64,000 bases of DNA from Deuterostichococcus epilithicus (Eukaryota > Chlorophyta > Trebouxiophyceae > Prasiolales > Stichococcaceae), in contig JAVTLE010000001.1 of NCBI GenBank assembly GCA_033439295.1, positions 1,922,001 through 1,986,000 on the forward strand, given 5' to 3'. Numbering within the stretch: the stretch's first letter is position 1; every line of letters begins with the position of its first letter. Of this stretch, positions 4,430 through 50,700 are shown piece by piece. The notes beneath the pieces were generated by a model that saw only the letters and a list, made by a program, of their open reading frames with translations, had not been told where the DNA came from and made no database searches. The position numbers and the translations under genes were made by a program.

Positions 4430-4431
4430 GC

Positions 4432-10622: not shown

Positions 10623-10631
10623 AAGTCAGTA

Positions 10632-11384: not shown

Positions 11385-11410
11385 GATGAGGGTTTAGGGT
11401 TTAGGGTTTN
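11385..11410 (+). repeat. Interstitial plant-type telomere-like motif
   Basis: About three TTTAGGG units (GGGTTTAGGGTTTAGGGTTT) sit between two G-rich arrays. The same unit is the telomere repeat of most plants and of chlorophytes such as Chlorella. A run this short is an interstitial remnant, not a chromosome end. Confidence 0.6.
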
Positions 11411-17500: not shown

Positions 17501-20500
17501 ATTGCCAGCGATCAGCACACACACCGCACCTGCACCAGCACGTGCTTGGTCTCGTTCCAGGTGGGGTGCAGCGTCTTCTTCTTCACAGACGTCTTCTCCT
17601 TGGCCAGCGGCAGCGTGGACAGCTCCACAAAGGGGTCGGACTTGCCGAGCACATCGTACTTCTTCAGGCCGCGCGCCTCGATGACCTCGACCGTCAGCAG
17701 CCCCACATGCCTGCGTGATCAGGCCGGGTGTGGTGATGTTGTAGTCTTGGCAGCGCACTGCCCTCCTTCAGACTGCACGCCTTCACGACGGTCAGCAGCC
17801 CCCGTGTGCTCATGTGGGGGCAGTCCAAGCGAGGTGTGATCCTGCCACAGACTGTGCATGTGCGAACTGTTGCGATGAGCGAAGTCAGCACCTGCACAGC
17901 ATTGAGGAGTTTGGCATGGCTGGAGGAACAGCTGCCCATCTGACTGGCCGCAGTGCTTGCTGGTGTGCACAGGGCGGGCTCGCATGGAGACGGTATATCT
18001 GGGTTACCTTTGGCAGGCGGAAAAGGGACTTCCGATAATAATCGTTGGCACTGCCTGTTGAAACTCATAACTTGAACTCACCGCATCTCCAGGATGGAGT
18101 AGTCGAAGTTGGGGTCGGGCGACAGCGGCACCACGATGCGGTTGGGCCACACGAAGAGGTCCGTAAGCGTGTGCCGCAGAAAGGGGTCAAGCCACATCAT
18201 GATGGGCTTAACAACAACCGCGCCGCCCACCTGCTTGCCCACCTCCAGCGTGAAGTTAATCTGCGGCAGGGCCGCGGGGGCGTCAGCAGCACGCAAGTTG
18301 CACAGGGCATGAGCGAATGTGGGCAGCAGTCGGGTCCAATGCTGCACATTGTTGAACACAGGCCCAAGGCATGCCAGTGGCACGCAGCAGAACCCAGGCA
18401 TCCAGCAGATTGACCGAAGATCGACGAGCTGCTCGGGATTTGTATATGCAGCTCATGAGCACGACACGTGCAGCCAATGAGGTCATCAGCCAATCAGCCA
18501 ATGCTGAGGTTCACAATGCATGGTCCAAGAGCATGCTGGTTTGCAGATAGCAGGACGGCACCTGAGGGGGCGCTTTCATTGCGACCACCATGCCGGCAAC
18601 CACGGGCACATCGTCGATCAGGGGCTTCATCGAGATACGCCACACACCGCTCATCTGCAAGCCGCAAGTGGCTCACAGTCAGGCCTTGCCGCACATATGT
18701 TTGCGGCATGTGTTTTGAACAGCCAAATTCCCTTTCTGAACAGCTGCTGCTGCTGCAGGTCAGGGGTGGTCAGACATTGCTAGCGCTGGCAGGAGTGGAG
18801 CCAGCGGCGCAGCACTTCAAGTGCACAGCAAAGAACAGCAGGACGTTCCAGAAGGCACAAGCCTCACCCGCAGGTTGGAGACCTTTGGCACCATGCGCAG
18901 CAGTGTGCCCAGGCTGACGATGGGCTCGATGGCCAGCGCGATGTTGGCCTCGCCTGCCCACCGGAAGCCCACCTGCAGCAGAGGAGGCCACGCCAGAATG
19001 CGGTGGGCCTGAGTGAAGAGACGCAAGGAAGGGTGCGACAAGAGGCAGCAGCCGAGAAGCCACAAGTCGGCATTCGCAAGGGGAGTGAAAGCACTGTGGT
19101 ATGTGGGGACAGCGCTCAGCGGCCGATGCACCTGCCCGCTCTGCGGCACCTCATCGCCATGCATGCACCCTCCTTTGGGGGCTGGCTGCACATCTGGCGA
19201 CGCCTCTCGCACCGGCGGCACACATCCAGGGGAAATGTGATCCATCCATGGCATACAACTGACCTCCAGGGTAATCTCCTCGGGGTTGGACTTGTCCACC
19301 CACACGTTGTCGATCTTGAAGGGCGCGTCGCCAAAAGTGAGCGTGCGGAAGTAGATCTTCTTGACAAGGCCCGGCGGCTTGTACGCGTCCAGCAGCGGCT
19401 CCACCGATTGCTGCGGCGGCAGGAATCGGGCGTATCAGATGCTCAAATGCTTTCCATGACTGAGTGCAGAAAGAAGTGACCTGTCAACGATTGATGTTGC
19501 TTTGTGAGCGATGTAGCCTGGCAGCGCGCTGACCTGCCATGTGTCCTCACAATGTAGTGGGCAGCAGACCAGCGGCAGCTCCAATATCAGACTAGGACTC
19601 GTCGAAAGAAGGCGACCGAGTACAGGAACAAGATTAATCAATGGCAGGCGCAGAGGAGAGACTGGATTATCTGCCAAGCCCGTGTGCGGCTGTGCTCCTC
19701 ACCTTCACAGCCTCGCAGATGGCCGGGTCGTAAAATGGCCACATCTGCATCAAGATGCTGTTGAGCCACTGCATGACACGCGAGCCGTCGTCGAGTCATC
19801 GAGAGGTCGTGAGAAGCTGAGGCAATTGCTGAAACTCTTCGAGTCAGTCTTTGGCAAACAGCGTCTCGAGCGGTTGGATTTGGCTCGCTGCAGGCCGCAC
19901 TATAACCTTAGATGTGTGCAAAAGCAGGGAGCCAATGCTCGCAACCGCACCTCAACACGCTCGTGCTCCTCGTAGTGGATCCAGGCTGGCACAGTCCCCA
20001 CCAGCTCCTTGAGGCCTTTCAGGCCTGGGTACACGTTCAGCTGCACGAATACGCAAAGATTGTCAGCTTTGGAGACCAGATTCCTCCTCCAGAGGCCCAA
20101 CCTGCGCAGGCGATCCGTGTCAATGGTGACTTGTTGCAAGCCATATGCGCCAGAGCAATATCAGAAGGACCAGCGCGCGCTGTGCCATGAACAGCTCTTT
20201 TTGTCATGTCACCTTCTCGATGTTCTCCGCCTTGTGCTGCTCGTTCTTGTGTTTCCAGAAGCTGAAGCCCAGGCCGGCGGGCACGCCGTAGAGCAGGCTC
20301 CACAGCGTGAGCTCGCCCCACCGCGGGGGAAACAATTCGATCATGAGCAGGAAGCCCAGCGCTGCCACCGCCAGCAGCCCCTGCGCGGGCGCCGGCGCAG
20401 ATGTTGGAACTTTTTCAGCAGGGACGCATCAGTACGTTCAGGGCTGAGATGTTTACACACTGAAGACATCATTCGGCAGTCAGACAATACTGCAAATACG

Positions 20501-21726: not shown

Positions 21727-24700
21727 ATGCTGCAGGGCTGGCGGTCACTCCTGTCTCGATCAACTCAGCTGGTGGGGGGCGGCTCTGCCGCCGCGCAACT
21801 CGAGGCAATGCTGTCAAAAGGCCACAGCTTGGACGGCCGCGCAGTCAGCCAGCTGGTGTCTCTGCGCAGCTTTCAGCTGACACCGCGCCGCAGGCAGGGC
21901 GTTCAGAGCAGCTCTGCACACAAACAGCAGCCGTGTGTGTGGCACAGCACCAACCCGCTTCAGGATGCCCTGCGCACGTCGGCATGGCGGCTGCACGGCA
22001 CCAACGCACCCGCATCTGGAACAGGACGCGGTACGCAGCATGATGCAGGGCAGCTCAGCTCCTGGCAGCCTTCTGGCAGCAGCAGCAGCGGCGGCGGCGG
22101 CGGTGGTGGATTGGCTCTGGCAGATCGTCTGGACAGGGTCGCCGGAGACAGTGCCTGGAATCGGGCAGAAAGGATAGCGGTTGGCCCGCGCCAGGCGCCG
22201 AGGTCGAGGCGGCCGCGGCACCGGAGCAGGGACGGCGGCAGCCGCAGCGGGCAGCAGGCGGCACGGCAGCGGTCGCCCGAGAAGGACAGAAGCGACACCC
22301 GCAACATCCAGGCGCCTCGTGAGGACGTGCACAGCTGGCGGCCGCCGCCACCGGCGGTGGCGGCGGCCCAGGACGCAAACCGCGTTCCCGCCGGCCAGCT
22401 GCTGCGCCGCTGTGACATCCCCAGCCATGCCTGGGTGGTCCTTAGAGCGCTCAAGGACGCTGGTGCGCGACCCTAGCCCGGCCGAACCCTACTCTCGCTC
22501 CGCACCCGGAATAAGGCATCAGTGGCGACCAGACATTGACGGCATGCCTGAGCTGGGATTGGACACCTGCCACACTGCCGCCTGCTGGCTGTTGCGAGGC
22601 ACATGGCCACCTGTCATAGTCAAACCCCAAACCCATGCCAAGTAGCCGACTATTGACCTTTCCAGGGCACGAGTCATTCTTAGTGGGCGGCGCCGTCCGG
22701 GACTTGCTGCTGGCCGGCACCCCCAAGGACTTTGACATCCTCACGTCAGCAAGAGTTCACCAGGTGCCCTAAATGTTGTGCTGTTGGAGATGCACAGCAA
22801 CCTGCGAGCCCTGTTATGTCTCATTCTGGGGAGACATTGCTTCACAGACGATGCTGGTAACTCGCCAACAGCTGTACAAACTCTCGTGTCAATGCCTGCT
22901 GCTAGGTGCGCGCGGTGTTCAGGCAGACGCGCTGGCGGTGCCTCGTCGTGGGGCGGCGCTTCCCCATCGCGCACGTCATGGTGCGGGGCCAGCTGGTGGA
23001 GGTGTCGAGTTTCTCCACCAACTCGGACGAGCCGCAGCCGCCGGACGCTGCGGCGCTGGCTCAGACCTCGTGCTTCAAGGTGAGGGCTCGGGCTGAGCAC
23101 CGACACCGAGCCGAGGTGTCCCGGCAGTCGAGCATGCCGGCAGGGATTCCAGCGCACAGTAGCCAGTTCCCGACTTCCAAGAAAGTGAAACGACAAATGT
23201 CCATGCACACATGTGTTTGAAGCCAGGCAGGAGCAGCACGTTTAGCTCCGATCTAGCGACGTCGGCCACGGAAACCTTGCTGCCTGAGCGCACCGCTGCA
23301 AGGCTCTGCAGGCGAAGGAGCAGCGGAGGGCGGCGCTGGCTGCGTGGGTCGGCGCGAGGCGCACAAACGCATTGGCCCGGGACTTCACCGTCAATGGCCT
23401 GCTGTACGATCCCTTCGACCAGGTTCTGTACGACTATGTAGGTGGGTGTGGGCCTTGCAGGGCGTGTTGAGAGGGGCATGCCTTGTTCGGCCATCCTCCC
23501 GTGTGCCTGTGAAGCTTGATCTTCGAGTGCTGGAAGCAGTTCCCTGCAATGCTTGCCTGGACCTTGGTCAAACCTTCGAGGGAGGCGCCTACAACATCCT
23601 TGCTGCACTTGCTCTGTTTTTTCAAGAACCAGAACAGGGGCCGATCAGGGTTCGTGCTGTAACGCCTCAGGCGGCGTGGACGACTGCAACACTCGCACCC
23701 TGCGTGCTATCGGTGACGCGGAGGTGAGTTTTGCGACCGACCCCGCCCGCATCCTGCGCGCCATCCGCCTCGCATCGCGCGCAGGTGCGTCCTCCTGCGC
23801 CGCAGGGCTCCTACTCTGCCCGACTGCAGCGCTCTTGCCTCTGTCATACCGCAGCGGGGTGCTGCATTGCTTTGCCGCAACAGTGCAGCCCCTCACCGCA
23901 CCTCAGAGCATATCCCACTACAGGTGGCTGATCGCGTTCTCTGAGCCCACGGTCCACTGCTGCGGGCATGGAATGCAACGACGAATGGGAAGAATCCTTC
24001 CGGATTGTGACATGCTGTTTAGGTCTCTCAACCGCTAAGTCTGTCGTACACTCCTGCAGGCCTGGCGCTGGAGGAGGGCACGGCAGCCGCGTTGGCGGTT
24101 CAGGCGCCGCTGGTGGCCGGCCTCGGGCAGAGCCGCCTGGCCATGGAGGTCGCCTCGATGTTCAGCCACGGCGCAGCCGCACCCGCAGCAGCACTCCTGT
24201 GGCGGCACCGCTTGCTGGACTCGCTACTGCCGCTGCATGCGGCCCACCTGAGCCGCCACCGAGCCGCACGCAGCCCTCGGTGAGCAGCGACACTCGGGAC
24301 ACGCAGGATTCTGTTGCCTCAGAGGCACGTCCTAGCGTTGGCCAGGCCCGGCAGTGGCTGGCTTGTTGTGTTCTCTTCGAGCTGAAGGCTTCCACTGTGC
24401 AGAATATTGGCCGTGGGGATGGCGCATGTCTTGACTTGCTGTATCATCGTTTGCTGCCAAGGGGGAAGCGGGTGGGCGCGCATGCTGCGGCGGCCGCATG
24501 TGTCAGAACAGAAACAAAAATCTGCAAGGTGCCCAAGCGCTTGAGGTCTGCACCTATGCGTGGCAAGCAGACCCCCCTGCCGTCTCAAACGGCCCCTGTG
24601 CCTCATGGCAGCGATCAGTCTACGCGGCCCGATGTCAAATCCGAGTGCTGCAGGTCGAGAGGCAAGTCGCCTCCGCCGCTGCTCCGGGCGCTGGCGGCTT

Positions 24701-30780: not shown

Positions 30781-32256
30781 TTGCAGCGTCAAGAATGCAA
30801 TGAGAAGAGGACACCGCATCATGGACGCGTCCGCACATGCGGACGATTTTGCACGAACCTCAAGCAAGCTGGCTCATTCATTGGGGACCTTCAACGTTCT
30901 GTCGCGTTGAGCTGCGCCATCTCATTTGTCCATGCGTGACCATCTCGATGAATGATCATAAACGGCGGCGAAAATAAACAAGACCCTGACTTTATTATAA
31001 TCAAGCTGTGCTGTGAAAGCCATTCGTATTGTTTTGGAGGGCTTGTCCAATCGTTTGTTGTAAAATTCACAACAGAGTGATGTATTGTGTGAAAGATCGA
31101 ACTTTTCTATAGTCTCGACGACACAAGCAATTATCGTATAATATACTTTTCAGGGGGCCGTTAGGTGCATAGCACACTGCATTTGATCAACACATTTTAG
31201 TTTGATCACCTTCGGTGATTCAAACTTATGCACTCAAGTTTTCCGCCTGGCCGTAGTAAACCCTAAGAGTCGTCGACGGGAAACCTCCTCCGCCTTCTGC
31301 CGGTGTCACCCTGCGTCTTCATAGGTCTTCGGTGGTCAGTCAGCTGTTCCTTCGGCCAGCCTGCAGACCTTGCGTGGCAGGCGCCTCGCGCTGCGACTAG
31401 CCGTGCGAACGGCGCCCCGGCAGCCGGCGTTGTAAGATTTGGCGAGTTGATGTAAGAATCGTTTCCGCGCCCTTAGTACGACTTTCCAGAGAACGGGGAA
31501 GCACACCCGGGCTAACCCCTCTGGTCCTTTAACGAGGGTGATGTTCGCGATTGCCAGACGCAGACTGTGATTCGGAAGCCTCCCGGCTGCAGTGCAGTCC
31601 GCAGCCAGGTTGCACGGCTGCTGCAGCTGGCAGCCGCTGCACGCTGAGGCAGGTCGCAAAAGGGGCGTTTCGGAGAGATCAACGACGAGGGAAATTTAAG
31701 TGTAACTTTTGCTCAGCTTCCGCTCGTGGGTAAGTTTACCCGCCCACCTGCCAAGTACAAGGGGGGGTGTTCACGTCCAAGCTGGGGATGTTCGCCAGCT
31801 GAGCTGCATGCGGCAACTTGCGCCTGCTTGTTTCAGCACATGTCAGAAAGGCTTCTGCAGTGATGTGCGAGCGCTTTCGGCGTGCGCCCTGATTCTCATG
31901 CACATTCTCATAACTTTTTCCCACACCCCGAGCCGTGAGTGTCCTGGAGCGTGCTGGTTTGCTATCTGTATGAGTCCTGCGATCACATCAGGATGAGCAT
32001 GCCATGCCAGCTGCTGCATGTTGCGATGCGTCATTTTGCTGTGGCCGTTTTCGCTACAGGGTGCTGCCCGGTGCTGTCATTCCTCGGCCGGCCTTATCAG
32101 CGACCTGGCTGCTCCCCTTCTGAGCGGCCCCTTTCGATCAAACTCGCGTCTCGCCCCCGGCGAGCGCCCATTGTTGCGATAGCCCTCGCCTATTGACACT
32201 GGTCCCTACAGCCACTGTCTAACGAACCTGGAACACTTCCTGTCAGCTTGACCCTC
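30781..32256. other. Intergenic region left of the copia element
   Basis: About 1.5 kb without a supported gene. The first 400 bp are relatively AT-rich (ATAAACAAGACCCTGACTTT, TTATTATAATCAAG) and contain TTGTAAAATTC near 31058, likely 3' flank of the transporter. A hairpin lies at 31199-31223: TTTGATCACC and GGTGATTCAAA pair around a UUC(G) loop with one bulge. Short open frames here show no similarity to known proteins. Confidence 0.4.
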
Positions 32257-32531
32257 TGTTGAGATTAGTGCATTCGGAACGGTATTGTTAGTACCGTTAG
32301 GGTATGCAAGGTTATGAGTAGCTCGTGTTCATGACGCTGCAGCTCGCAGCATACGAGTGCAGCTCGCAGGAGGCGTTGGATCATGGGCGCGTGATGCTTG
32401 TCGTAAAGCGCATGTGTTGTGGGTATAAGAGCTGCCCAATGCGCTCACAATTGTAAGCCTTCCACTCTCAACTGAGACACCGAACCCCTGCCATTGCAAT
32501 CCCCGATTAGCCTTCGGCAGGTTTCGCAACA
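32257..32531 (+). repeat. Left LTR of the copia element
   Basis: Starts TGTTGAGATTAG and ends TTTCGCAACA, so the termini TGTTG/CAACA are inverted repeats. GGGTATAAGAGC at about 32420-32431 is a plausible TATA region for transcription from the LTR. Confidence 0.95.
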
Positions 32532-32543
32532 GGTTATGGGCCC
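32532..32543 (+). promoter_or_regulatory. Primer-binding site matching the anticodon arm of initiator tRNA-Met
   Basis: GGTTATGGGCCC begins at the first base after the LTR. It is complementary to GGGCCCAUAACC, the anticodon loop and stem of eukaryotic initiator tRNA-Met, not to the tRNA 3' end. Drosophila copia primes from a cut 5' half of this tRNA using the same kind of site. Confidence 0.8.
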
Positions 32544-32658
32544 TCACACGCTAACGCGCAATTAACGTGTGAAAGCAAACGTTCTGAGAACAACGTTTGG
32601 TTGAGTTTCTTGGTGAAGGCCAAGCACGCAAAAGCTTGCAAGAAACTCAGACGTCGTC

Positions 32659-35601
32659 ATGACGGACTCGGTACAGTACGGTACACGCTTTGAGCAGCTG
32701 GGTACCGAAAACTACCTCCAATGGAGCCTGCGCGCAAAGGGGCAACTGCGGCTCAAGGGCCTCTGGTCAGCCGTGGCCAAGCCAGACGAAGCCGGCGACG
32801 AGGCCTCGGAGAAGGTACTCGCGTACCTGTACATGTGGGTACAAGACCAACACTTGCCCACCATCATGGACTGCAAGACAGCCGCCGAGGCGTGGAAGAC
32901 GCTCGAGGATACCTATCAAGCGAGCAATAGGGCGCGTCGCGTCATGCTCAAGAAGGAGATGGCCGCCCTGCAAATGTTGCACGACGAGGACGTGGCGTCC
33001 TACGTGGCACGGGCGCGCACCCTCCGCACCCAGCTACTGGGTGCAGGCGACGCACTCAATGATGAGAACCTGCTCATCAACATCCTCACTGGTCTGCCGT
33101 CCGACTACGGCCACATCGTCGTCAATCTAACAACCACCGCGAGTGATGTCAGCCTACATGACGCAATCCCGATGCTGCTGAACGTCGAGCAGCAGCACCG
33201 GCTCAAAGGCGGTCCCCTTCCCCAGGACAGCCAGGCGTTCGGCGCGTTTCGCACCAAACACGGCCGACCAACAGCCGCCAACAAGACGCCCCAGAAGCCG
33301 CCCACACGTGAGACACGTGAGTGCTACAACTGCCACAAGAAGGGCCACCTCAGCCGCGACTGCCGCAGCCGCCGGCGTGACGGGCGCATCAAACCCGGCT
33401 CAGGCACTGATACAGTGGCCTTCGCAGCCGTCGCGACGCCCACAGCCAACCATGTGGCACTGTCGGCTTCACCAACCGTCAGCCGCGATGAGTGGCTACT
33501 TGACTCTGGCGCGTCCGACCACGTCACCAACGCCTATGGGTGCCTGCACAACCCCCGGCCGCCGACGCAGCCGATGAGCGTCACCTTCGGCAAGGGCAGC
33601 GCTCCCGTCACCGCCATCGGCGACGTGTACCTACCGCCCAGCTGGCAGCACTTCAAGGGAATCACCCTCAAGAACGTTCTCTACGTCGAGGGCGTATCGG
33701 CCAATCTCCTGTCAGTCAAGCGTGCAACCGCCGCCGGCGTCAACGTGCGCTTCACCCCACAAGGTGCTGACCTCGAGCTTGGCAGCAACCAAATCGCTTG
33801 CGCGGACTGCACGGGCAGCGGTGTGTACAGCCTGGGCCACATCGAGGACTCAGCCGATCTTCATCACCAGCCGTTCAAGGCGGCGCACAAGGCGCCCAGA
33901 GTGAAGAGCGTGAGCAAGGCTCCCACCGCTCAAGCCGCCATCGTGGAAACGCCGGAGGTGTGGCACCGCCGATACGGCCACCTCGGCTACACCAACCTCC
34001 AGCGCCTGTCAGCCAAGGCCATGGTGACCGGCATGAAGACCACCGCCGCGGAGTTCGCGGGCGCGGCAGCCCTGACATGCGAGCCGTGCATCAAGGCGAA
34101 GCAGCAGCGCGTCCCACATCCGCCATCGCCAAGCGTGAGTCGCGAGCCGCTGCAACTTCTGCACATGGATCTGCAAGGTCCAATGCAAGAGCCCTCTCTG
34201 GGCGGGGCGGTCTACGTGGCCACCTATCTGGACGATTACTCAAGGCTGTCCGTCGTCAAGTCCATCAAGACGAAGGGCGAAACAGCGGCCACCACCATCG
34301 TCGTCATCAACGAGCTGGAGACGCAAGTCGGTCGGCGCTTGCGTGCGATACGCACCGACAACGGGACCGAGTACGTCAATAAGGACCTCGCCTCCTACCT
34401 CCAAGGCAAGGGCATCATTCACCAAACCACGATGACCTACACACCGGAGCAGAACGGCGCGGCCGAACGGCTGAACCGTACCCTCATGGACCGGGTACGC
34501 GCGATGCTTATGGACACTGGCATGCCCGCCAGTACATGGGCCGAAGGCGTCGCAACCGCCAACTACATCCGCAACCGCTCCCCCACGGCCAACGGGCAGC
34601 AGACTCCGTGGGAGCTGTTCTACGGCGAGAAGCCCGACGTGAGCCGCATGCGGGTGTTCGGCGCCACCGCATACGTCCTGATACCTTCGCCACTGAGGCG
34701 TAAACTGGACAGCCACACCAACCGTGGACGCTTCGTTGGTTATCAGCCCAACACCATTGGCTACCGGATCCTCCTTGATACAGGCAAGATCGTCATCTCC
34801 GAAAATGTCATCTTCGACGAGGGAGGTGGGAAACAAGGGGCAGCGCAGCCTCCCACTGAGTCGGCAATCGCGTGGGAGCCCACCGACATGGATTCCACCG
34901 ACGGCGGCACGGAACCCCCTGCCGACATGGACGTCCCTGCCGTCAACAATGCCGACGCAAGCGACACCACCAATAGCGGTGAGGATCCCACTGACGACGC
35001 CAACAACGCGCCCACACGCCGCACAAGGCGCACGTGGCAGCCCACTCGGCGTGCACTGGACGCCCAAGGCTACACCGCCACCGCGGAACTCGGCGAGCCT
35101 CTCACCTATGAAGAAGCCGTCGCCTCCCCACAAGCCAACGCTTGGCTCACAGCGATGCAAGAGGAGCTGGCCGCCCTCTCCGCACACAACACATGGGAGC
35201 TGACGAAGCTACCAGCCGGCGCAAGGCCCATTCCAGTCAAGTGGGTCTACAAGATCAAGCTTAACGCCGACAGCTCCATTGAGCGCTACAAGGCGCGCCT
35301 CGTAGCCAAGGGCTTCCGCCAGCGCGAGGGCATCGACTTCGACGAAGTGTTTGCCCCGGTGGGCAAATACACAACCCTCCGCTGCCTGCTGGCACTGGTC
35401 GCCAAAGAGGACCTGGAGCTACATCAGCTCGACATCAAGACGGCTTTCCTCAACGGCAAGATTGAAGAAGAAGTGTACATTGACCAACCCCCGGGTACGG
35501 CAATGGCGACGCTGATACGGTCTGCCGGCTCAACAAGGCGTTGTACGGACTGCGTCAAGCCCCGCGAGCCTGGCACCTCTGCCTCCAAGAGTCGCTGGTA
35601 G
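32659..35601 (+). pseudogene. Copia gag-pol, first part (gag, protease, integrase, start of RT), ends at a frameshift
   Basis: The ATG lies 128 bp after the LTR. Gag occupies about residues 1-215 and ends in a zinc knuckle CYNCHKKGHLSRDC (near 221). The protease site is LLDSGASDHV (near 280). The integrase has the HHCC finger (WHRRYGHLG to CEPCIKAKQQ) and the D,D35E core (HMDLQG, RTDNGTEY, NGAAERLNRT). The reverse transcriptase begins near residue 835 (WVYKIKLN, RYKARLVAKGF, LDIKTAFLNG). In the C5G3 run at 35488-35495 the frame shifts by one base and ends at TAG 35599-35601 after about 35 unrelated codons. Confidence 0.95.
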
Positions 35602-36647
35602 CGGCTGGATTCGTGGCATCTGCCTCGGACCCGAGTCTCTACACCTCCACCGACAAAAGGGGCGACAAGACGTACATACTCGTGTACGTGGACGACATGC
35701 TGGTGGCGGCACCCACCACGGACTGCATCATGCGGGCCAAATCTGCCATCACCAACTGCTTCGAGGCACACGACCTCGGCGAGGCAAAGATCTTCCTCAA
35801 CATGAGGATTGAGCGCGACCGAAGCGCCCACACCATCAAGCTAAGCCAGGAAAGGCTGGCTAACACCCTGGTGCAGCACTACGGGCTGGTCAACGGCAAG
35901 ACGCGCGGCGTCCCCTTGACTCCCGGCACGCTGCTGACCGCCGACGACGGCGAGCCCCTCTCCATCGACACGGCGGGGCACTACACGCACTTGGTGGGCA
36001 CTCTCCTGTACCTCAGTACGTGCACACGGCCAGACCTGGCGCACGCTGCTGGCGTGCTGTCCAAGTACATGGCGAAGCCTACCGCAGCGCACTGGAGCGC
36101 AGCCAAGGGCATACTCCGCTACGTCGCAAACACCAAGACCAAGGGCATCGTCTTCAATGACTACAAGGCAAGCGAACGCCCACCTGCCATAATCGGCTAC
36201 ACTGACGCTGACTACGCTGGAGATCTGGACAGCCGACGCTCAACGTCTGGCTTCGTGTTCATGCTCTATGGCGGGGCAATCAGCTGGCTCAGCAAGCGGC
36301 AAAGCACCGTTGCTACATCCACGGCCGAGGCCGAGTACATGGCGGCCGGCATGAGCGTCAAGGAGGCGATCAACCTGAGGCAGCTGCTAGCCGACCTCGG
36401 CTTGGGCAACCAGACGATCACCATCTTCGCTGACAACCAGAGTGCAATCAAGATGCTCAAGAACCCCATGGCCTCGTCACGCACCAAGCACATCGACGTC
36501 GTCTATCACTTCGCACGCGAGCGGGTGGCGCGCCAAGACGTCAAGTTTCAGTATGTGAAGACCGAGAAGATGCTCGCCGACATGCTGACGAAGCCCGTCC
36601 CAAAAGGCAAGCTCGAGCTGTGCTGCGATGGGATCGGAATGGGCTGA
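35493..36647 (+). pseudogene. Copia pol, second part (RT core and RNase H)
   Basis: Continues the polymerase in the next frame directly after the shift: LNKALYGLRQAPRAW, the catalytic YVDDMLVAA (about 35683), GTLLYLSTCTRPDLA, and RNase H with GYTDADYAGD, STAEAEYMAA and NQSAIKMLKNP. It ends at the stop 36645-36647. There is no start codon of its own; the split is caused by one base in a homopolymer run, which could be a real mutation or a sequencing error. Confidence 0.95.
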
Positions 36648-36753
36648 TGAAGCACAGCAGCGCTGGCGAAGAAGACTATGCAAGCTTACTGACACTTAGG
36701 CAAGCCCGTCCACGATGTATGCTTGAACGGTACTGAACAATCCCGCGTGGGAG

Positions 36754-37587: not shown

Positions 37588-40500
37588 ATGTCGGTGCGGG
37601 TGGAGGCAGATAGCATGTCTGCAGAATCTCCCGGGTCTATTTTGTGCATCTTCAGCAGCAGCGAGAACTGCAGGCACACTCATGCAGCATGACAGGCTAC
37701 TCTGCCTCTGATATACCACCTCCAGATGCCATAGGTGTGACAATCCTTTGCCGAGTGCCCTGGTTGTAAATGATGTAACCCTGCCGCAGGTCGGTTGGGA
37801 GTGCCTCACCTTCAATATCAAAGACGGCTTCGTTGGTGCGTTGTCCTGCAAGCAGCGGCGCTCGCACTATAACGGCCTCATGCATTCATGTGCATTGCAG
37901 ATTGAGTTCAAGGGTCTGCACCGCGTCCATTCGTAGGTGCTCCAATCATTTGATTCCCGCCTCTGCGCCTGCGCAGATGCGGTGGTGCGCGGGCACAGAT
38001 CAGGGCTGCTGTCTACAGCAGATTACAACAACCTGGCGCAGTGCGAGAGCCTCGACGACATCAAATTGAACCTGGTGAGCTTTGCCGCTTTACATCACAC
38101 TGTTGTCATCCGCAATAATGCAAGATGGAGATGCGCCAGCAGTGCTGCTCCACAGTGTGCGTTGCCTCGAATTCACAGCAAAACAGCACAACCTTCAAAA
38201 CTCAACCCAAAGTCCGTTCATGTAGTCTGCCATGGACTATGGACCATATGTCCAAAACCTGGCAAGCCCGCTGCACACCACGACCCTGGTGGAGGCGTGC
38301 ACCCAGCTACTGGTGGACCAGTGGGTATTCATGCGCGCCAACGTGAGTGAAGTGGACCCCCTGTGGCTCTCTGCTGCTCACTGCTTGTCTGGCCCTGTTC
38401 TGCTCCGAGTTCATTGCATCGGTGGAGGCTTTCTTGATCCACGGCGCACACAGGATGAGGGTGCAGGCAGCTTGAGGCGCCTGTGAGCTGACAGACGCAT
38501 GCAGCCGCATGGAGAGGCTGGCCAATGCACCGCTCTCGCAGTCATGGCTACATCTTAGCTGCTCCGAACCTACCATGGCGCAGGCGGACAAAAATTTGGG
38601 AAAGTTTCTGGACTACTGCACCTATGGCCACATGATCGACAATGTCATCCTCATCGTGACGGGCACGCTGCACGAGCGCGATGTGCAGGTAGCATCGGCC
38701 GACAAATGAATGCGTCAAGCTGGTTCCGCTGTGTTTGCACATGAGGCCTGTTGCTGTGGCCACCGATCTGGAGGACTGCCAAGCCTCCAGCCTCCATGCT
38801 TCATCCCGCCGTGCCCTCAACAGAGACGAGCTGCTGGCTGAGTGCCACCTGCAGGGCATGTCCAGACGCGATCACGATGTTGGCGGTCGCCAATCCTGTA
38901 TGTGCTCTGGATGCGCTCCTCCCGCATGTGCGCAGGAGCTGCTGGCCAAGTGCCACCCGCTGGGCATGTTTGACGCAATTGCGACGCTGGCGGTGGCCTC
39001 CAACATGCGGGAGCTGTACCGGCTGGTGCTGGTGGACACACCGCTGGCGCCCTACTTTGCGGAAACGCTCACGAGCGAGGACCTGGACGAAATGAATATC
39101 GAGATCCTGCGCAACACCCTGTACAAGGTGCTGCCTTTCTGTCCCTTCACTTCTGCCTTCCTTTTCCTCGTGGGGTGTCTTGAGGTGGCTCCTGGTGTCG
39201 TTGGGTGTCGTTCCTCTGTTTGTAGCCCCGGCCCCCGGCGCAGAATGCTGCGCAGGGTGCTGGTGCCGCGCGTGTGAGCTGATTCAGAATGAAAGCTTTG
39301 ACAGTCAGTCGATCCCATTTCCTGTTGCCGCAGGCCTACCTGGACGACTTTGAGAAATTCTGCAGTAAGCTGGGTGGCGCCACCGCCGAGGTCATGGGCG
39401 ACCTGCTGGCCTTCGAGGTGCGTATCAGGATACATTTCCGAATTTCTATCAGGCCAGCGCGCGATCCTGACTGCCCCACAGCTGGGCTGCTGTGCGCAGA
39501 GTGGCCAGAATTAGAATAGCTCAGGCAATGATTCTAGGTGCATGCTGCCTGCCCCTCCAGGGGCCAGTGCTGGCCAGTGCCTACTGGCAAGGCTTCTGAA
39601 GCAATTGCTTTTCTGGCGGGGACGCACGGGGTCCCTCTGCCACTGCCGGACTTCGCCCTCACGCAGCCCAAGCATTCACCGCCAGTTGTTGTATCGAACA
39701 AAGCGTCACGTCATGGGCGCCGCGCACAGGCGGACCGGCGGGCGCTCAACATCACGCTCAACTCCATTGGCACAGAGCTGACGCGGGACGACCGCCGCAA
39801 GCTGTACTCCAACTTTGGCCTGCTGTACCCGCACGGCCAGGTGCCTCTCCTGCCTCTGAGACTCTGAAGCCTGCTCCCGCTCCAGGAACAGCTGCCGCCC
39901 TGTGTGCCTGGCCTCTGCAGAATACGGCAGGCGCCCAGCGAAAGGCCAAGGAGTGAGTTGCGCTGTTCGCCCCTGTTGTGTCGCCGAGGGGCACATCCAC
40001 AGGCACAGCTGGCCGGCCACCGTGCATCCGCTACCGAGATCAGCAGGTGCCGCCCTTCGGCGTTGCCGCTGGGTTTCCGTCCTGCAGCGCAAGGGCTTAT
40101 AGACCCTCATGGTGCTCATGCCAAGCTTTCAAACTGGTTTTGGAACTGCCTGCAGGCGGAGCTGGCGCTGGCGGAGGACTTTGACCAGATCCGGTCGGCG
40201 ATGGAGAAGGTGCCGCCCTACTCCGCCATCTTCACCAAGGTGCGCAGGCGTCTGTTGCCGTGGCTGCTAGCTGTGGCACTCCAGTACTCTGGCTCGGCCT
40301 GTGCCTGTGCCTGTGCCTAAACAGGTCTTGTGCATTTTCGGTTTGTCCTGGCCATGCGGGCCAGTGTCTGCGCCGACCGCACGGACAGGCCCGGCTGTGT
40401 CCGAAATTCCCGGAAACTTCGCCCCTGCAGCTGGCATACGGCGAGGCACAGGCGCTGGACCGCGTCATGTACGAGGAGGAGGTCCGACGGGAGGCGCTGT

Positions 40501-41790: not shown

Positions 41791-43278
41791 CTACTGCACG
41801 ATGATCTTGCCGGCCATGCCAGCACCTGCACGCAACACACCGTAGCCGTCCAAAGATGCTTGCACAGGGTTGGCATGAAGTACAGCACATTTTCCTCAGG
41901 AGCCTGGGCAGCAACGAGGCAGATGCAGGGCATGAGTGGGCTTGCGCACCCTGGTGGGGCTCGCAGTAGTACTCGTAGGTGCCCGCAGACTTGAAGGTGC
42001 TGGACACAGTCTCGCCCTGTGCGCCATTGCAGAACGTGTGACAATTGGGAACAAGGCAGCAGATGACTGAGATGGTGGACGTCATGACAGATGGAGGCAA
42101 CTTGGCACGGCTGGAATGCTGTAGATCAAACGAAGTCGAGTGGCAGTCTGCATGCTGAGTGGCGCCTGCAATCTGCTGGCGATTTTATGGTCAGCCTTCA
42201 CACCTTGGCGTTGAGGTAGTCCTCGTGGCTCAGCTTGTCAGCGCTCTCGCCCGACTGCAGGCGGCAAAACGACTTCTGTACATATTCATTCCATGGCTGG
42301 ATGAGCAGTGCAGCAGCCAAAGAGCGATGCACTGGTGCCATTCGGCCGACTACAGAACGCACCGGGATGGCGTCCTCGTCGAAGACGATGTTGTGCGGGA
42401 AACCTGCAGGCATGTAGCAGCCTCTCGCAATGACAAACTGTGCGCCTACGCAAACATTTAAAATGCACTCCACCTGGAAAGCCAACGGCACCCAGCATGT
42501 GCTGAGAAGAGATAAGCAGGGCGATAGGTGCCGCACCGGCGTTGTTGGTCCATGTGACGGACTCGCCGGCCTTGATGGTGACGGTGTCGGGATCGAACAC
42601 CAGGCCACCGGCGTCAGTGCCCAGCTTCACATCAGCAGCGTGTGCCGACAGCGCCAGACCCAGGGTAGCGATGGACACGCCTGTGAAATTGCAAATGAAA
42701 AGTCACTGTCAAAAAGAGCTGCCACAGTGCGCTGATGCCACATGCAACTGACAGGAGCAGCAATGCGCCTGCGGAGGTGCGCCCTGCGAGGGCATGGTCG
42801 ATGAGCGAAGGCGGTACGTCCGCCGATCAGCAACGCGACAGTTGTGTGTTCTTATTTGAATGCTGGCAGAGAAACGCACAGTCAGCGTCGCCGAGCTGTC
42901 CCTGCTTCTGGATAGCATCGCATGAACGGCCTGCCCTCCCAGAGGGCCTGACGCCGTGGTCCAGCCGGCCGATGCCCCATGCATCGCCATGAGGCGGCCA
43001 AACTTGTCTGCACGGCCATCATGGCAAACTGTATTGCTCCGCGCGGAGGCCGTGGCGACGTAGTCCTCGCCACCCATGCGCCTCTGCGCCGGCCTAGGGC
43101 CTGCGCTGACTGCAGGCGTTGCCTCCCAGCATCAGAAGATCGCGCGAGCCTCACCGGCGGCCTTCGCGACGCGGGCGACGTCCTGGCGGAGCGTGCAGGA
43201 GACGGGGGCAGCAGCCCGGCGGGCCACGACCGCGCGGGTGGGCGCGACCAGGGGCGTCTGAACCAGAGAGGTCTGCAT
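41791..43278 (-). CDS. PETE: Plastocyanin precursor
   Basis: Six exons give 153 aa: 43278-43155, 42680-42537, 42403-42363, 42254-42204, 42016-41950, 41825-41791. The N-terminus (MQTSLVQTPLVAPTRAVVAR) is a stromal import signal. A second hydrophobic stretch (VSIATLGLALSAHA) with an Ala-x-Ala end is the thylakoid lumen signal; the mature protein starts at about ADVKLG. The copper ligands are all present: His in GFPHNIVFDED, and Cys, His and Met in YYCEPHQGAGMAGKIIVQ. The protein carries electrons from cytochrome b6f to photosystem I in the thylakoid lumen. Start and length match algal plastocyanins. Confidence 0.95.
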
Positions 43279-43637: not shown

Positions 43638-46047
43638 TCACGCGGCGACGACGTCCCTGATTTGCAGCACGTCAGGGAGCTGCGCGGTGTACAGGTCCGG
43701 GTGCACCGTGTTCTCCGGCCCCAGCAGCTCTGCCTCCGTGGTCACGCCTGCATAGCAGCAGCCCGCCACACATTACTTTGCAGTGGGGAGCATGGCATGG
43801 CATGGGCATGGCATGCAGTGCACTTCATGCGCATTACAACAGCGGGCGTGCACAGCCGATCCTTATGTGCGTTTCTCGCACGCAGTGTAGCTCAGAGGTC
43901 GCACTGGTCCATCCGCTTCAAGGCATCGAGCCGGGTCTGCAGCCTTGCACCTGACAGGACCAGCATGGTGGTGAGGCCGCCATCGCGGCCGAACTGGATG
44001 TCGGTGTCCAGCCGGTCGCCGACCATGCAGATCTGGTCGCGCCGCAGGCCGCACGAGTTGGCGATGTTGGCCAGCATGAACTCCTCCGGCTTGCCCACCA
44101 CCGTTGGCTCCCGCTTTGTGGAGCCTGCGCCAGGCGCAAAGGTGGGGGGTTCAGACACATCACCAGCAGCATTTCAGCGCCAACACCGCTGTTGCTGCTT
44201 GTGTGCGAGGATTGTGGAACGCAAGCAGGAGGTGCCAGGCTCAGCCTGGCACAGCGGGCACAGTGGACTCACCCTTGATGGCGCCAACCATGGCGCCATT
44301 GCCTGCCCACTCCTGCAGCCGCCAGCAGACCCCAGAACAACTTCTCAGCAGCAGCACCCTCCAGATGCGTTGCAGAGTGCTACAGCCATGCCGCCTTGCA
44401 GGGCCGCAGCCACCTCCAATCCCACATGGTTTGCTGTGTCACTCAGACCAACCCTTTTGCAATGTCAGACAATATGTGAACATCACCTGTGCGTCTGTGA
44501 GGTGAGTGACTGCGTCCAGGTTGGTGGCGATGAAGTGGCAGCCCGGGTTCTCCCGGATGCACAGCGTCGCATACTGTATTTTGTGATAGTTGAGGTTTCT
44601 GTCGTGGCCCACCACCACGGCGCCCACCTGCCGAACAGGATCGATTTGTTGTGGTCGATGCATCAGGTCCCAGGCCCACATTGCATCGGAATCTCACGCG
44701 GCATCTGCCTCCGTCCTCTGATTTGATGAGTAGCGTCTCAGCACGCCTGCAGTGAGGTGCGCAGATGACGTGATCGCAAGCAAGTGGCGTCCAGGTGTGG
44801 AACCCATGCAGCTGTGCAGAAATCTTTGCCATTCTCAAGGAAAGGAGGTGCAGTCCAGGGAGAGCTGGCCAGGGGGCGCACATCCTTGTCGAAGGGCATC
44901 GCATAGCCAGGCTTCAGCTCCACCTTCTTGTCGTTGTCAGCGGGGCCGCCAGTGTGTGCAATGCCAAGCAGGTCCAGCTCCTCCTGGATGCCCACGTCGC
45001 CGATGATGTACACCTGCGGGGTTCAGCGTCTGAGGTTGACACTGATGGCTCGCTCTTGGGCGGCCCGACTTGCTGCAGCAATTTCTACTGTGACTTGCAG
45101 TGTATGCAATGCCCAGCAGGTCGAGATCCTCCTCGAAGCCCCGTACCTAATGACCGCCTGCGCGGGCAGGCTAGGTGATTGGCCGGCTCTGGCCCGCTGA
45201 AGGGCTCAAACACGAGGACAATGATCGGACGGTCATGGAGCCTGCCCCTGAGGTTGGGGAGCTGATGTGTGAGGCTGGTGCGCCGCAGCTGCCCATGATA
45301 CTGCCCAGCTGATGTGGAAGTGTGGGGCACACCTTCTTGTCCTTCGGAAACTCGATGGACTGGAGGTAGGCAGCCGCCGCATAGGAGGAGGAGTAGATCT
45401 CCTCCGCCGAAATTTTCAGTCCGAGCTTGGTGAACTTGCCAAGGTAGCCCTCGCGGCTCTTTGTGGAGTTGTTCGTCACAAAATAGAGCTTCTTGCCCTG
45501 CGGTGCACGCCAATGCCGGCGTGGGCGTTTGGAATTCTGGGGCTGCGCCTTAGCGGCCTTGGACGACGTCGCGAACGGCGATGGCAGGGCTACGGGTACG
45601 ACAGCTAGCTGCTCACCAGCGATCTGAGGAGATCGATCGTCTCGGAGACCCCCTCGATCAGCGAGTCTCCCCGCCACACGACGCCTGCGGCACAGGACCG
45701 CAAATCGGCGAAGACCCAATCCTCCCAGCAGACCAGCTGCCAGCAGACGAGGTCAGCACAGCTGAGCACAACGCACTTACCGTCACAGTCAAAGATGAAG
45801 CAGTCCACCTTGTCGACCAGGGCTTTCAGGTCGTCAGCTGTGGCCTTCTTCACTGCATGCAAACGCCACAGAGTGCATGTGAGCGAGGCAGGGAAATGGT
45901 CCAGGAATGTCCAGGGCTGAAGCTGATTGCGACTTACAGCAACGTCCTCGTGGATCGCGATTGCCAGTTGGTAGCGTATAGTCGCCGCCAATATTCGTCG
46001 AGATCACCTGCAGATGCTCCAGTTCCTGCACCGTTGCCGGACGCCAT
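43638..46047 (-). CDS. Phosphoglycolate / 4-nitrophenyl phosphatase (HAD superfamily, C2 cap)
   Basis: Nine exons give 313 aa: 46047-46008, 45852-45781, 45684-45617, 45497-45333, 45013-44882, 44627-44487, 44312-44273, 44124-43951, 43747-43638. HAD motif I, DCDGVVWRGD, is assembled across an intron. Motif II is FVTNNSTKSREGY. The substrate-cap region includes DKDVGAVVVGHDR and FIATNLDAVTHL. Motif III/IV are VVGKPEEFML and MVGDRLDTDIQFG. The family removes phosphate from 2-phosphoglycolate, the product of RuBisCO oxygenation; the cytosolic branch acts on related phosphates. The predicted start gives MASGNGAGTGASAVKKATAD, with no clear plastid signal, so it is either the cytosolic type or an upstream exon is missing. 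Confidence 0.9.
45099..45160 (-). repeat. Decayed copy of the start of phosphatase exon 5 inside the preceding intron
   Basis: On the plus strand AGTGTATGCAATGCCCAGCA, then GGTCGAGATCCTCCTCGAAG, corresponds to AGTGTGTGCAATGCCAAGCA and GGTCCAGCTCCTCCTGGATG at 44951-44990 inside the exon. Similarity continues to the exon start (45013). The copies are offset by about 148 bp. Confidence 0.78.
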
Positions 46048-46681: not shown

Positions 46682-47174
46682 ATGGCCGAGGAGGAGGCCA
46701 CAGTCAAGGAGCCTCTTGACGTCATCAGGCTCTCACTGGACGAGCGGATATACGTTAAGTGCCGCGGCGAGAGAGAGCTCCGCGGCAAGCTGCACGTGAG
46801 AGCCTCCTGCAATCCGCACCTTTGGCTGTGCTGCCGCTTGCAACCCAGTTCTCGGGCGGGGCACACTTGCTCGGCATGTGCCTGCGCAGGCTTACGACCA
46901 GCACCTGAACATGATTCTGGGGGAGGTGGAGGAGACAATCACGACCGTCGAGATCGATGACGAGACCTATGAGGAGATCATCAAGGTGAGCCGCAGCGCG
47001 CATTCATGACAGCGCACGCCTGTATATGGATTGGCTGGTGCGGCTTCTGCTGTACTAAGCGTCTTGCGGTTGAAGGTCGTACTTTGCGTTGCGCAGACAA
47101 ATAAGAGGGTAATCCCATATTTATTTGTCCGAGGAGACGGCGTCATCTTGGTGTCGCCGCCACTGCGATCGTGA
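46682..47174 (+). CDS. LSM3: U6 snRNA-associated Sm-like protein LSm3
   Basis: Three exons, 46682-46795, 46890-46985 and 47097-47174, give 95 aa. Sm motif 1 is [20 protein letters not shown] and the next exon [17 protein letters not shown]; Sm motif 2 is [17 protein letters not shown]. Position and sequence follow LSm3 of animals and plants almost residue for residue. It is one of seven subunits in the nuclear LSm2-8 ring that binds U6 snRNA and in the cytoplasmic LSm1-7 ring in mRNA decay. TGTAA at 47335-47339, 161 bases after the stop, is a candidate poly(A) signal. Confidence 0.95.
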
Positions 47175-47726
47175 TGGGGATACGACAGTCCGTCCTGTGC
47201 GGCGCATCTGCAAGAGAGGCTGCGCCCTTGCCAGGCGTTGCATCTGATGGCCATCTTCTCTCTCTTCAGGCCGACCCACTGTTGTGCAGTCTGACTGCAA
47301 GGTTGTGCAAGTGCCGCTGCAGGAGCCTTGCAGATGTAAACATCAGTGCTGCCTTGTAGACCAGATCCTGTTCGTATCATGATCGTGTCAGCAGGGATGC
47401 AAGCTTCAACGGCAGGCTCATGCTTTTACACTGCACACACACCGAGCGCCAACAAAGACGCCTCAGGGCGCAGATGCTGCCGAGTGCGAAGCTACAAGTC
47501 CCCCGGCAGACGGCACTCACTCCGGAACATGCTTCTGGCCAGTTTTTGGTGCGGCCTCCCGCCGAGTAGGCCACTTTGCACAACTTGCACCTAGTACCTC
47601 GGGGTGATAAACAGAGTGGCGGACACACGAGTGATCAGCGTACTGCTCAAGTGCTCTACTTCTGCTACAGCGCAAACAGCGCTCCAGCTAGGTACACTTC
47701 GATACAGCGTCTCTGCGTCGGTGCTC
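47175..47726. other. Region between LSM3 and the R3H-SUZ gene
   Basis: No gene seen. It contains the LSM3 3' UTR and the next promoter. No element is recognised beyond the TGTAA noted for LSM3. Confidence 0.4.
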
Positions 47727-50700
47727 ATGTCGGCGGATCCGGTGGCGACGGGCGCTGGGGAGGCTGTCGAAGCCTGGGAGGAGTGTGATCAAATTCCGGA
47801 GTTCGCCCGGCTCGTCGTGTCGCCGCCGGCTGAAACGCCTGGCGAACCTGATGGCAATGACAGGTGAGCAGCATGTACATCGTTGAGGTGGGCACAGCTG
47901 TGACGAGGTGCCCGGACGGCGCGAAAGGCTACACACATTGCTCCCGGATCCCTTGTCAGCTGACCTCGGCGGCACGCAAAGCATGGCGCCATGCCTGAAG
48001 GATCTCGCCTTGATGCATGTTGCCTGTCGCATAGATCAGTCGTTGCGCATGGTCCTTGCATGCTTCTGAGGCTGGATGTCGCTGCACGCCGCTGCGGTTG
48101 CGCACAGATCCATCAGACAATGCTCATGCTGGACCGAACGCCCCTCGAAGTTCGCTCTTCATCCTGTTCATTGGTTGCCTTACGCCGTGCAGCACCACTG
48201 CGAATGCTCGGACCATCTCCAGCGTCCCAAGCAGCCACTCAGCCTCCCGCATCTCAGGCAGCGACAGCGGCACTGCGGCGGCCTTCGTGGACAGCAGCAT
48301 CCGCGATGCCCTGAGCAGCTCCGGCAACAGACTGACAGGCACGCAGCTATCCTGAACACCTGATTAGTTATCCCAGAGTTGCACAAGTGCGGCCCCCGGG
48401 CATCATAGCCCGGCTGCAGGGGCACGCTCGTCCGATTCCATGCGAGCTTGCTGACGAGGACTCATGGTGCGCGCAGTGCTACGGTTCGAAGTGGATGTCG
48501 AGGACTTTCTGAAGCAGTCGCAGGAGCAGCAGCTGGTCTTCCAGCCGAACCTCACGCCATACCAGGTGTGCAGCACATGCAAGGTTCTCAATCTCGTTTG
48601 CAGCAGTTCTTCTGCTGGCGAGCCGAAACTACAGGCCTTGCAGAGCTGCATACTCCCACTGCTGCACGGCCAGCCGCAGTTCTATGAGCGCAGCGCCGGC
48701 ACACACAGCTTCCAGAGACAATGCGGATGGTGGATGCCGCGTCGACCTTTTGAGCCTTCGTCAAGCGCCAAGTGGCAATGCACCCAAAGAGCTGCTCTCA
48801 CGGCTGAGAAACTATTGCCCCTCATGGCCTGACGAACTGCTGCCACCTGCGTCTGCAGCGTATGCTGGCGCACAAGACGTCTCAGTACTATGGGCTGGAA
48901 ACGGCCACCCCGGAAGCCGGCGAGCACGCCAATCGCATAGTGGCGACACGCACCGCGCAGACCCCCAGGCATGTGCAGTCTTGTTCTGTCTTGCCTGCTT
49001 TGCATTTGCATGTAAATCCTTTGACATGACCCCAGTCTGCTCAATTGATTGATTTGATTGACTTGCAGACTGCTGCTGGTCCAATCAATACCCATTTGCA
49101 TCGCAGGCACCCGCTGTGGCGGCTTGCCGACCTGATGCTGATTATGGAAGGGTCGCATGAACTGATTAGTCACCATCGCCGCCGGTGAACGCAGGCGCCC
49201 GCCTCCGCGACTTGCCGACCTGAAGCTGCTCGATGGCGGCCGCTCTGTCAGCCCAGCGCCATCGGACGGCGGCGGCGCCCCCAAGCTGCTGGTGCGACGG
49301 CCCGGCAGCGGCGGCGCGGCGCGGCCGCCGAGCGACGACTCTGCGAGCGCCACCAACAGCGAGGCCGGCGCCAGGTTCTGATTCCTGTTCCTGCAATGGG
49401 ACTGCATCATGCGAGTCTTGTGCTGCGTCTGCCCATCAGGAGCACCTCCAGTGGGGCATCAGGCCGCAGCTGCTGCGCCGCACCTGCGCGCTCTGCGTGA
49501 CCAGTTCACCATCTCTGCACCTGAATGCTTGTCATGGCAGGTGAATGCAATGTAACTGTGTCTTCCACGCTGCAGGTCAGTGCAGGAACGGGAGCAGGAG
49601 TACCACCGCGCACGCGCCCGCATCTTTGGCGGGGACGACTCCGCTGCAGGGGGCGCCCCCTCGGAGCAGCAGCCAGCGCGGCCGGCCACCGGCGGCGGCC
49701 GGCAGGCCAGTGGAGGTGGCCGCAGCGGCGGCGTGCCGGGCGGCAATGGAGGCGGGCAGCTGGGCAACAAAAAGGCAGTGCTACGGTGCGGGTCGGAAGC
49801 CGGACATCGCTTCAGCACTTTGCAACTCCGCATGGGTGGTTCGACCTTGCAATTGACGGGCAGGTCTTGCCCTGCAGTACAGCAATCCATGTAGTGGAGC
49901 CAGCGGTCAAGCAGCCCGCCGTCATGCAGCTAGCACTCAGCTCTCCGCATCAGCCCCCTCCGTAGCTTGCCTACAGGCTTGCCGACGTTGGCGCCGGCCC
50001 CTCAGCTCAGCAGCGTCACACTCACTCGTATCAGATTAGACATGCCCTGTGCGACAGGAACCGGCAGGAGGAGTCGCGAGACCCGGACTTTCGCCGGGCA
50101 CACGGGCGCTTTGCACCGCGCTTCGACCCTGGCTACGGCGAGGCGCCTGCAGACCAGGGCGGCTCGTATGCGCTGCCCACTTATGGCACCCAGGTAAGAC
50201 GCAGACCCGTGACGTTCCAAGGCCTCATATCCCGCTTGTGGCCCTCGAAATGCTTCCTCGAGTCCTGCAGGCTGTGCCAATCATATGTGCCAGGGAGCCC
50301 GCTGCTCACTGGGTCTGGCGGGCGGGCAGGCGGGCAGCTTCAGCCGCCAGGCTCGTGTCGCCATTGCAACAAGCACAAAGTTCCCCCGACACACGTGTGT
50401 CTATACGCTCATCACCATGCTGAACCCGCCTCCTGGTTGCCGCAGTTCCCAGAGCTGGCCGGCGGCATGGGGCAGCTGGCCTACCCGGCCGCGGGCCAGC
50501 CGCATGGGGGCTTCCAGCCGCCGCCGGCGAACACGCGGCGGAACAGCGGCGGCGCGCCGGACATAGCGGCGTGGCAGGCCGCTGCGCAGCAGCAGACGCA
50601 CCAGCGTCAACAGGGGGGCTGGGCCGGCGGCGGCGGCGGCAGTATTTGGCCGCAGCCGCCGCCGCCTTTCGGCATGCCGCCGCACCCACAGCACCACCAG

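Follow-up and report, generated by a model that had tools for sequence, protein, structure and literature searches.

The V-ATPase subunit d gene and its surroundings

The stretch of DNA analysed here, which we call the window, is 64,000 nucleotides long and corresponds to C1:1922001-1986000 of a 46.8 Mb assembly in 21 contigs. It includes a gene for subunit d of the V-ATPase, the spliced product of which matches the Pfam AC39 family (E 2.5e-92) and can be aligned with the plant subunit d 7uw9_d, with all 341 residues covered. The alignment is free of gaps at the splice DVQ|ELL, where the exon ending in ERDVQ is joined to the next exon, and this sets the borders of the intron between them, the intron with which this report is mainly concerned (Table 1). 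Protein conservation and sequence both place the donor of this intron, GTAGCA, directly 3' of GATGTGCAG; our gene finder put it at 38683, 6 nt too early.

Several other features are present in the window. Upstream of the V-ATPase gene, long open frames with retrotransposon motifs (Copia-like by eye) extend over positions 32617-36647, and open frames resembling a non-LTR retrotransposon (with a reverse transcriptase recognised by eye), in partial copies, are found at 4000-10100. There is a GC-rich minisatellite around 10300-11900 and an AAAC tandem repeat of 33 copies with 96% matches at 13033-13165. Two predicted genes that appear by eye to be plastocyanin-like (41791-43278) and Lsm-like (46682-48355) flank a HAD phosphatase gene (43638-46047).

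Table 1. Positions of the exons, introns and exon-edge copies discussed in the text. Positions without a prefix are those of the window; the others are positions within sampled 10-kb loci.
Feature	Position	Strand	Details
Upstream exon, V-ATPase d	38584-38688	+	ends ...ERDVQ
Ghost-bearing intron, V-ATPase d	38689-38935	+	247 nt; GTAGCA ... TGTGCGCAG
AG near ghost start	38822-38823	+	scores 2.97 as an acceptor (predicted acceptors: 5th percentile 2.41)
Ghost, V-ATPase d intron	38828-38891	+	degraded copy of 63 nt at the start of the following exon
V-ATPase d exon starting GAGCTGCTGGCC	38936-39127	+	192 nt, of which the first 63 pair with the ghost
Second strong ghost, C2-domain exon start	16127-16188	-	source 16018-16078; offset 110; score 57; 79% identity
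Third strong ghost, HAD phosphatase exon start	45098-45144	-	source about 44950-44997; offset 147; score 59; 85% identity
Weaker donor-side ghost, last 55 nt of previous exon	15295-15347	-	offset 107; score 35; 73% identity
Weak next-exon ghost	17763-17802	-	offset 98; score 32, equal to the threshold; overlaps a 15-nt tandem repeat
Weak donor-side ghost	22073-22103	-	offset 262; score 32; second match at 129 (possible ladder)
Ladder, two or three copies beside one exon	L014:156-523		offsets 107/217/339
Ladder, two or three copies beside one exon	L010:9138-9471		offsets 133/278
Ladder, two or three copies beside one exon	L012:5575-5852		offsets 118/216
Ladder, two or three copies beside one exon	L003:7118-7436		offsets 120/242

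A decayed copy of an exon start lies in the preceding intron

The intron contains a degraded copy, or “ghost”, of the start of the exon that follows it. The ghost aligns in direct orientation with 38936-38998 at an offset of 108 bp, with 80% identity over 64 columns and one gap of a single base; its first 34 nt are 88% identical to the exon start, and weaker similarity continues beyond it to about 38905. The score of this alignment, 61, was reached by 0 of 2000 dinucleotide shuffles (mean 18.2, best 32), corresponding to a Gumbel p of about 1.7e-10, and the ghost was also recovered, with a score of 59, by a blastn self-scan that uses no annotation. With looser scoring (5/-4/-10/-2) the excess was smaller, the ghost scoring 220 and the best shuffle 207 (p about 1e-3). 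The copy of the exon edge is real, as the first-pass annotation had claimed in reporting that the start of exon 6 recurs 108 bp upstream within the intron. The same annotation had extended the similarity to about 25 nt of intron preceding the copy; when this intron is considered by itself, that match is not significant in comparison with random mid-intron pieces (p 0.24) or other acceptor ends (p 0.19).

Only one copy was seen in the intron, with none at a multiple of the offset. The corrected V-ATPase d model has 10 introns, and in the other nine no match to the following exon scores above 25; comparison of the intron with the end of its previous exon revealed no copy (score 16; 12 to 20 in the other introns of the gene). 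The ghost stretch and the protein sequence of the exon each match the genome once, with no second copy elsewhere, and a paralogous source for the ghost was therefore rejected. We also rejected duplication of a whole, or mutually exclusive, exon: the copy takes in no more than the first 63 of the exon's 192 nt, the alignment contains a one-base gap, and the candidate donor after the ghost, GTATGT, scores -0.2. One scan of viral contigs for relatives of the genome found none.

Exon-edge copies recur in the window and in loci sampled from other contigs

The first-pass annotation had counted the same pattern in four other introns of the window; in our scan two further ghosts are strong (scores 57 and 59), and a further three are weak (scores 32, 35 and 32; Table 1). 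The protein encoded by the gene with the ghost at 16127-16188 has C2 domains (Pfam E 4.3e-37), and its SMP domain falls just under the cut-off for that family. Pfam matches were found for all six gene products checked.

For a broader count we combined the window with 17 further 10-kb loci (L002-L018), each located 200 kb into one of 17 contigs, to form a first set. A small gene finder was trained on this set, with the transposon stretches of the window (1-13000 and 31500-36700) masked beforehand, and it predicted 39 genes with the splice signals CAG|GTGCG and GCAG|G, a median intron length of 270 nt and a median exon length of 129 nt. Its exon edges are not exact, given the misplaced V-ATPase donor, and exons outside the Pfam-checked genes rest on the ab initio model. 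There are 299 introns in models scoring at least 25; the scan drew on all 39 models, and 282 introns remained once those containing runs of N or adjoining a predicted exon shorter than 24 nt had been removed.

At a score of at least 32, 17 of the 282 introns matched their own next exon, compared with 0.75 predicted from swapped pairs and 1 obtained with the reverse complement. Comparison of each intron with its next exon against swapped pairs, the check that the first-pass annotation had proposed, was thus strongly positive in the window and 17 loci. Matches to the intron's own previous exon numbered 7 of 282 (0.55 predicted from swapped pairs, 2 with the reverse complement), and non-adjacent exons of the same gene gave scaled values of 1.14 and 1.26 at score 32. 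Raising the threshold to at least 40 left nine next-exon and two previous-exon matches among the 282 introns, where for each side swapped pairs give 0.05, the reverse complement 0 and same-gene non-adjacent exons 0.23. Altogether 23 of 282 introns in the first set carry such a tag, with one or two expected by chance, and ghost introns are longer than the others (median 446 versus 266 nt, p 3.5e-4). Because introns from the same locus do not count as independent observations, these p-values err on the optimistic side.

The annotation-free self-scan of the first set yielded 50 local repeat pairs (offset 30-400, score at least 34), 17 of them in the repetitive locus L018; exon-versus-intron pairs make up 21 of the remaining 33. 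Non-coding windows seldom matched non-coding sequence just upstream, doing so at score 32 in 7 of 1493 cases, four of which are in L018.

Ghosts typically have an offset of about 120 bp, and many belong to ladders

From the 24 ghosts at score 32, we dropped three in introns shorter than 110 nt and three with alignments shorter than 40 columns, leaving 18 for an analysis of geometry. Offsets of 16 of these fall between 93 and 147 bp, with a mean of 119 and a standard deviation of 16; the other two, at 266 and 278, exceed 200 and are excluded from the unit statistics. The exon-side end of the 16 ghosts lies 61 +/- 8 nt inside the exon, and 13 of 16 end within 55-70 nt, a window picked post hoc. 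The significance of this pinning near 60 nt depends on how much intron a unit is assumed to require (KS p 0.0003, 0.035 and 0.22 for intron minima of 10, 25 and 40 nt), and we therefore treat it as a lead only.

A second copy at 1.8-2.15 times the offset was present at 8 of 27 junctions, where swapped exons predict 0.26. Copies near twice the offset indicate that many ghosts are the remains of tandem arrays straddling the splice junction. The steps of these ladders are near-constant, at about 98-145 bp (Table 1; a further ladder in L018 has offsets of 132/266/384), and in L010 the nearest copy is not the most similar one. Ghosts occur on both sides of introns, past donors as well as ahead of acceptors. 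These arrays escape Tandem Repeats Finder, which lists nothing for the L003 array at score 30 and nothing over 38828-39015 of the window at score 40.

Most ghost introns are two to seven times as long as the offset. Two introns of 95 and 97 nt (L007 and L017), however, are shorter than the offset, and those of 221 nt in L018 and 176 nt in L014 are shorter than the offset of their second match; in these four the array must extend into the neighbouring exon.

Intron-side homology was assessed for 15 of the 17 acceptor ghosts. Pooled, it exceeded that of random mid-intron pieces (Fisher p 7e-7) and of other acceptor ends (p 2e-4); without L003 and L018, the two youngest cases, the corresponding values were 0.003 and 0.19. 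The L003 array has 25 of 25 identical intron nt next to the junction, and the whole of its “intron” is an open frame, so that part of it may be a coding repeat. Six donor-side ghosts assessed in this way showed no intron-side homology beyond chance, apart from one weak case.

Ghosts accumulate changes without visible constraint

In 21 ghosts (the count omits L018, d=266; L007, d=140; and L017, d=119), the mismatch rate at exon codon positions 1, 2 and 3 was 0.153, 0.163 and 0.232, respectively, and 33 gap openings were found in 1109 columns. The codon-position pattern and the gaps together indicate that the exon is constrained and that the ghost is under no visible constraint. The AG at the junction is lost in the V-ATPase d ghost. 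Such loss is not universal, as the junction AG is intact in 5 of the 11 ghosts that reach the junction.

Ghosts were not found in eight loci near contig centres, and none at a junction looks young

A replication sample of eight loci near contig centres (L019, L020 and L022-L027) contained 116 introns, none of which had a match on either side at a score of 32 or 30, where about 7 next-exon matches were expected. Lowering the score to 26 yielded a single next-exon match, where swapped pairs predict 2.2, and 8 previous-exon matches, where they predict 1.95. Only one of these 8 has an offset between 85 and 150, so these loci may hold a weak signal on the donor side. The annotation-free scan found 4 repeat pairs in the central loci, none of them exon-to-intron. 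Ghosts were present in 10 of the 17 loci 200 kb from contig starts and in 0 of the 8 central loci (p 0.008), and predicted introns were also shorter in the central loci (median 203 versus 272 nt, p 1e-6). Either the process that makes ghosts is regional, or the two samples of loci differ in some other way. The suggestion in the first-pass annotation that this may be a common way for introns to grow in the genome is thus not true of every region sampled: the excess seen in the window and the 17 loci is missing from the 116 introns of the eight central loci.

Identity in the 18 longer ghosts lies between 71 and 88%, with no match of at least 40 columns above 88%. The blastn self-scan contained no pair above 90% identity over at least 40 nt, but it is incomplete: an earlier ungapped scan detected a 52-nt pair at 94% in L009, as well as near-identical local repeats among the transposons and minisatellite of the window, in sequence that was masked later. 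A steady process with such a detection limit should leave many young copies, and none are seen at junctions; the junction copies look old, or young ones are missing from the assembly.

Other local repeats were noted in the sampled loci. A direct repeat of 52 nt (L009:1299-1401, first unit 1299-1350; 94% identity, offset 51) is the youngest-looking one outside transposons and junction arrays. The region L018:372-2539 is dense with direct repeats at offsets of about 100-380 bp and 71-100% identity, which cover predicted exons and introns alike.

Discussion

Our data suggest that the V-ATPase ghost is, very probably, a neutral fossil of a local tandem duplication over the acceptor of a pre-existing intron. 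That it represents half of a tandem duplication across an intron-exon boundary, as first proposed for this site, is the best-supported reading, although many ghosts belong to ladders of at least two copies, and they occur on the donor side too. In the V-ATPase gene, a unit of about 108 bp, made up of the last 45 nt or so of the intron and the first 63 nt of the exon, would have been duplicated head to tail across the acceptor. Splicing would have stayed at, or moved to, the downstream acceptor, leaving mRNA and protein intact, while the upstream exon fragment would have turned into intron and its junction AG decayed. As long as splicing uses the downstream of two acceptors, the message does not change, and the fragment of exon left upstream is free to evolve as intron; the ghost would be tolerated because that acceptor still splices. 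The same type of event would have taken place at many acceptors and donors, making introns longer; the period is mostly 93-147 bp, some cases involve at least three copies, and the events look old. As to how the copies arose, we infer end joining with fill-in, or replication slippage, followed by unequal exchange, which would add copies of equal period; the timing and order of the events are likewise a reconstruction.

A conserved exon keeps the original readable, so duplications at junctions stay visible for longer than wholly intronic ones, and this survivorship accounts for at least part of their concentration at junctions. A more specific history would be a past, regional burst of junction-centred tandem amplification, mainly off contig centres, in which units of about 120 bp, each including nearly 60 nt of exon next to an acceptor or a donor, came to be present in two to four copies. 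Such a burst would have been aimed at exon edges by something physical, such as a nucleosome-sized or transcription-linked lesion, rather than being just the surviving part of random duplications. We consider this history doubtful.

Among the alternatives to local duplication over the acceptor of an existing intron, birth of the intron itself by tandem genomic duplication has the advantage of being a known mechanism, described in a review (PMC3443670) and in a Drosophila study (PMC2891723). A coding segment with an AGGT-like site would have been duplicated, and the ghost would be a leftover of that event. As in the cases covered there, the ghosts combine a duplication with a splice choice that spares the protein, but in those cases a new intron arises from exon, whereas here an existing intron grows. 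Intron birth predicts copies of equal period on both sides, and both sides do occur across our set; the arrays that reach a neighbouring exon (L007 and L017 by their offset, L018 and L014 by their second match) also fit it. It further predicts a copy of the previous exon, however, and the V-ATPase intron scores within the range of the gene on that comparison; most ghost introns, moreover, are several times longer than the offset. The unit looks symmetric about the junction, which prompted us to consider this origin; it is very unlikely, and we rejected it for V-ATPase d, where the intron lacks a previous-exon copy.

A functional role for the ghost, as a poison exon or alternative 5' extension that would lower V-ATPase d expression through nonsense-mediated decay (NMD), appears highly improbable. 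The AG at 38822-38823 remains, and splicing to it would add 112 nt with a stop at the sixth codon, as expected of a poison extension. The true acceptor scores 5.85, however (median over 282 introns 5.77), as opposed to 2.97 for this AG; the ghost spans only the first third of the exon and is followed by no good donor; and mismatches across the set look neutral. Nor is there a sign of in-frame tolerance: the open frame extending back from acceptors has a median length of 93 nt in ghost introns and 84 nt in others (p 0.69), against what a used extension would predict, and with no such enrichment the open frame across the V-ATPase intron is ordinary here. The ghost is not part of the protein, since plant subunit d crosses the splice uninterrupted and use of the ghost's AG gives a stop almost at once. 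The suggestion in the first-pass annotation that such copies may supply alternative or NMD exons thus finds no support in the sequence at this site, where the candidate acceptor looks weak, the junction AG is gone and substitutions across the set appear neutral.

It is scarcely probable that ghosts were made through RNA, by reverse transcription of a fragment of spliced or unspliced transcript and its insertion near the source. Such a route would suit the 10 of 17 acceptor cases in which the best alignment begins no more than 4 nt from the first base of the exon, and the scarcity of intron-side similarity in most cases; against it, the two youngest cases continue into the intron, that in L003 through every nucleotide compared at the junction, and copies at twice the offset fit DNA arrays. 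Finally, it is extremely improbable that the match is due to chance in GC-rich DNA or to faulty gene models, and for the V-ATPase site this is refuted: permissive scoring puts the match only slightly over the best shuffle, but the stricter scoring, the swapped, reverse-complement and same-gene controls, the annotation-free hit at the same place and an exon fixed by homology all argue against it.

In mammalian cells, end-joining repair of breaks with fill-in makes small tandem duplications (PMC8355091); a 2014 rice study by Vaughn and Bennetzen is among the works cited there. Like those products of error-prone double-strand break repair, the V-ATPase ghost involves a short unit copied head to tail; the ghosts differ in being mostly 93-147 bp in offset, positioned on splice junctions, partly laddered and never young at junctions, and in that their mechanism is our own reconstruction. 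Tandem exon duplication provides a second comparison. In one study, homologs of at least 80% identity are given for about 2% of human, 0.08% of fly and 0.06% of worm exonic nucleotides (PMC9013439). There too, extra copies of exon sequence lie in introns of the same gene, some of them unannotated, but what is copied here is about 60 nt of exon edge and not a whole exon with both splice sites. By a different method, a rough counterpart for our first set comes to 315 nt when L003 and L018 are excluded and 441 nt when they are included, or 0.6-0.8% of the 52 kb predicted to be coding.

The LRR genes of Tetrahymena also contain periodic arrays that span exon-intron units, in the form of tandem 90-bp exons, with a stated bias in chromosome region and with unequal crossing over proposed (PMC6564038). 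Those are coding repeats of one gene family, whereas the copies described here are non-coding debris scattered over genes that are unrelated to each other, several being conserved by Pfam. Among the matches listed by a search of open-licence full text, a body of literature that leaves most subscription papers outside, none, in the text returned, concerned decayed periodic exon-edge copies in introns. A single ghost is the product of an ordinary, known type of mutation; it is the density, period, ladders and regional pattern of the ghosts that are unusual.

Introns are mostly unalignable between species, which makes their lengthening difficult to follow. When the edge of a conserved exon has been copied, however, the result is a datable tag: selection on the exon preserves the original, and the ghost is left to decay. 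Ghosts record one way in which introns grow, and with 23 of 282 introns tagged, a single genome makes it possible to count cases of intron growth by duplication, to time them and to place them along chromosomes.
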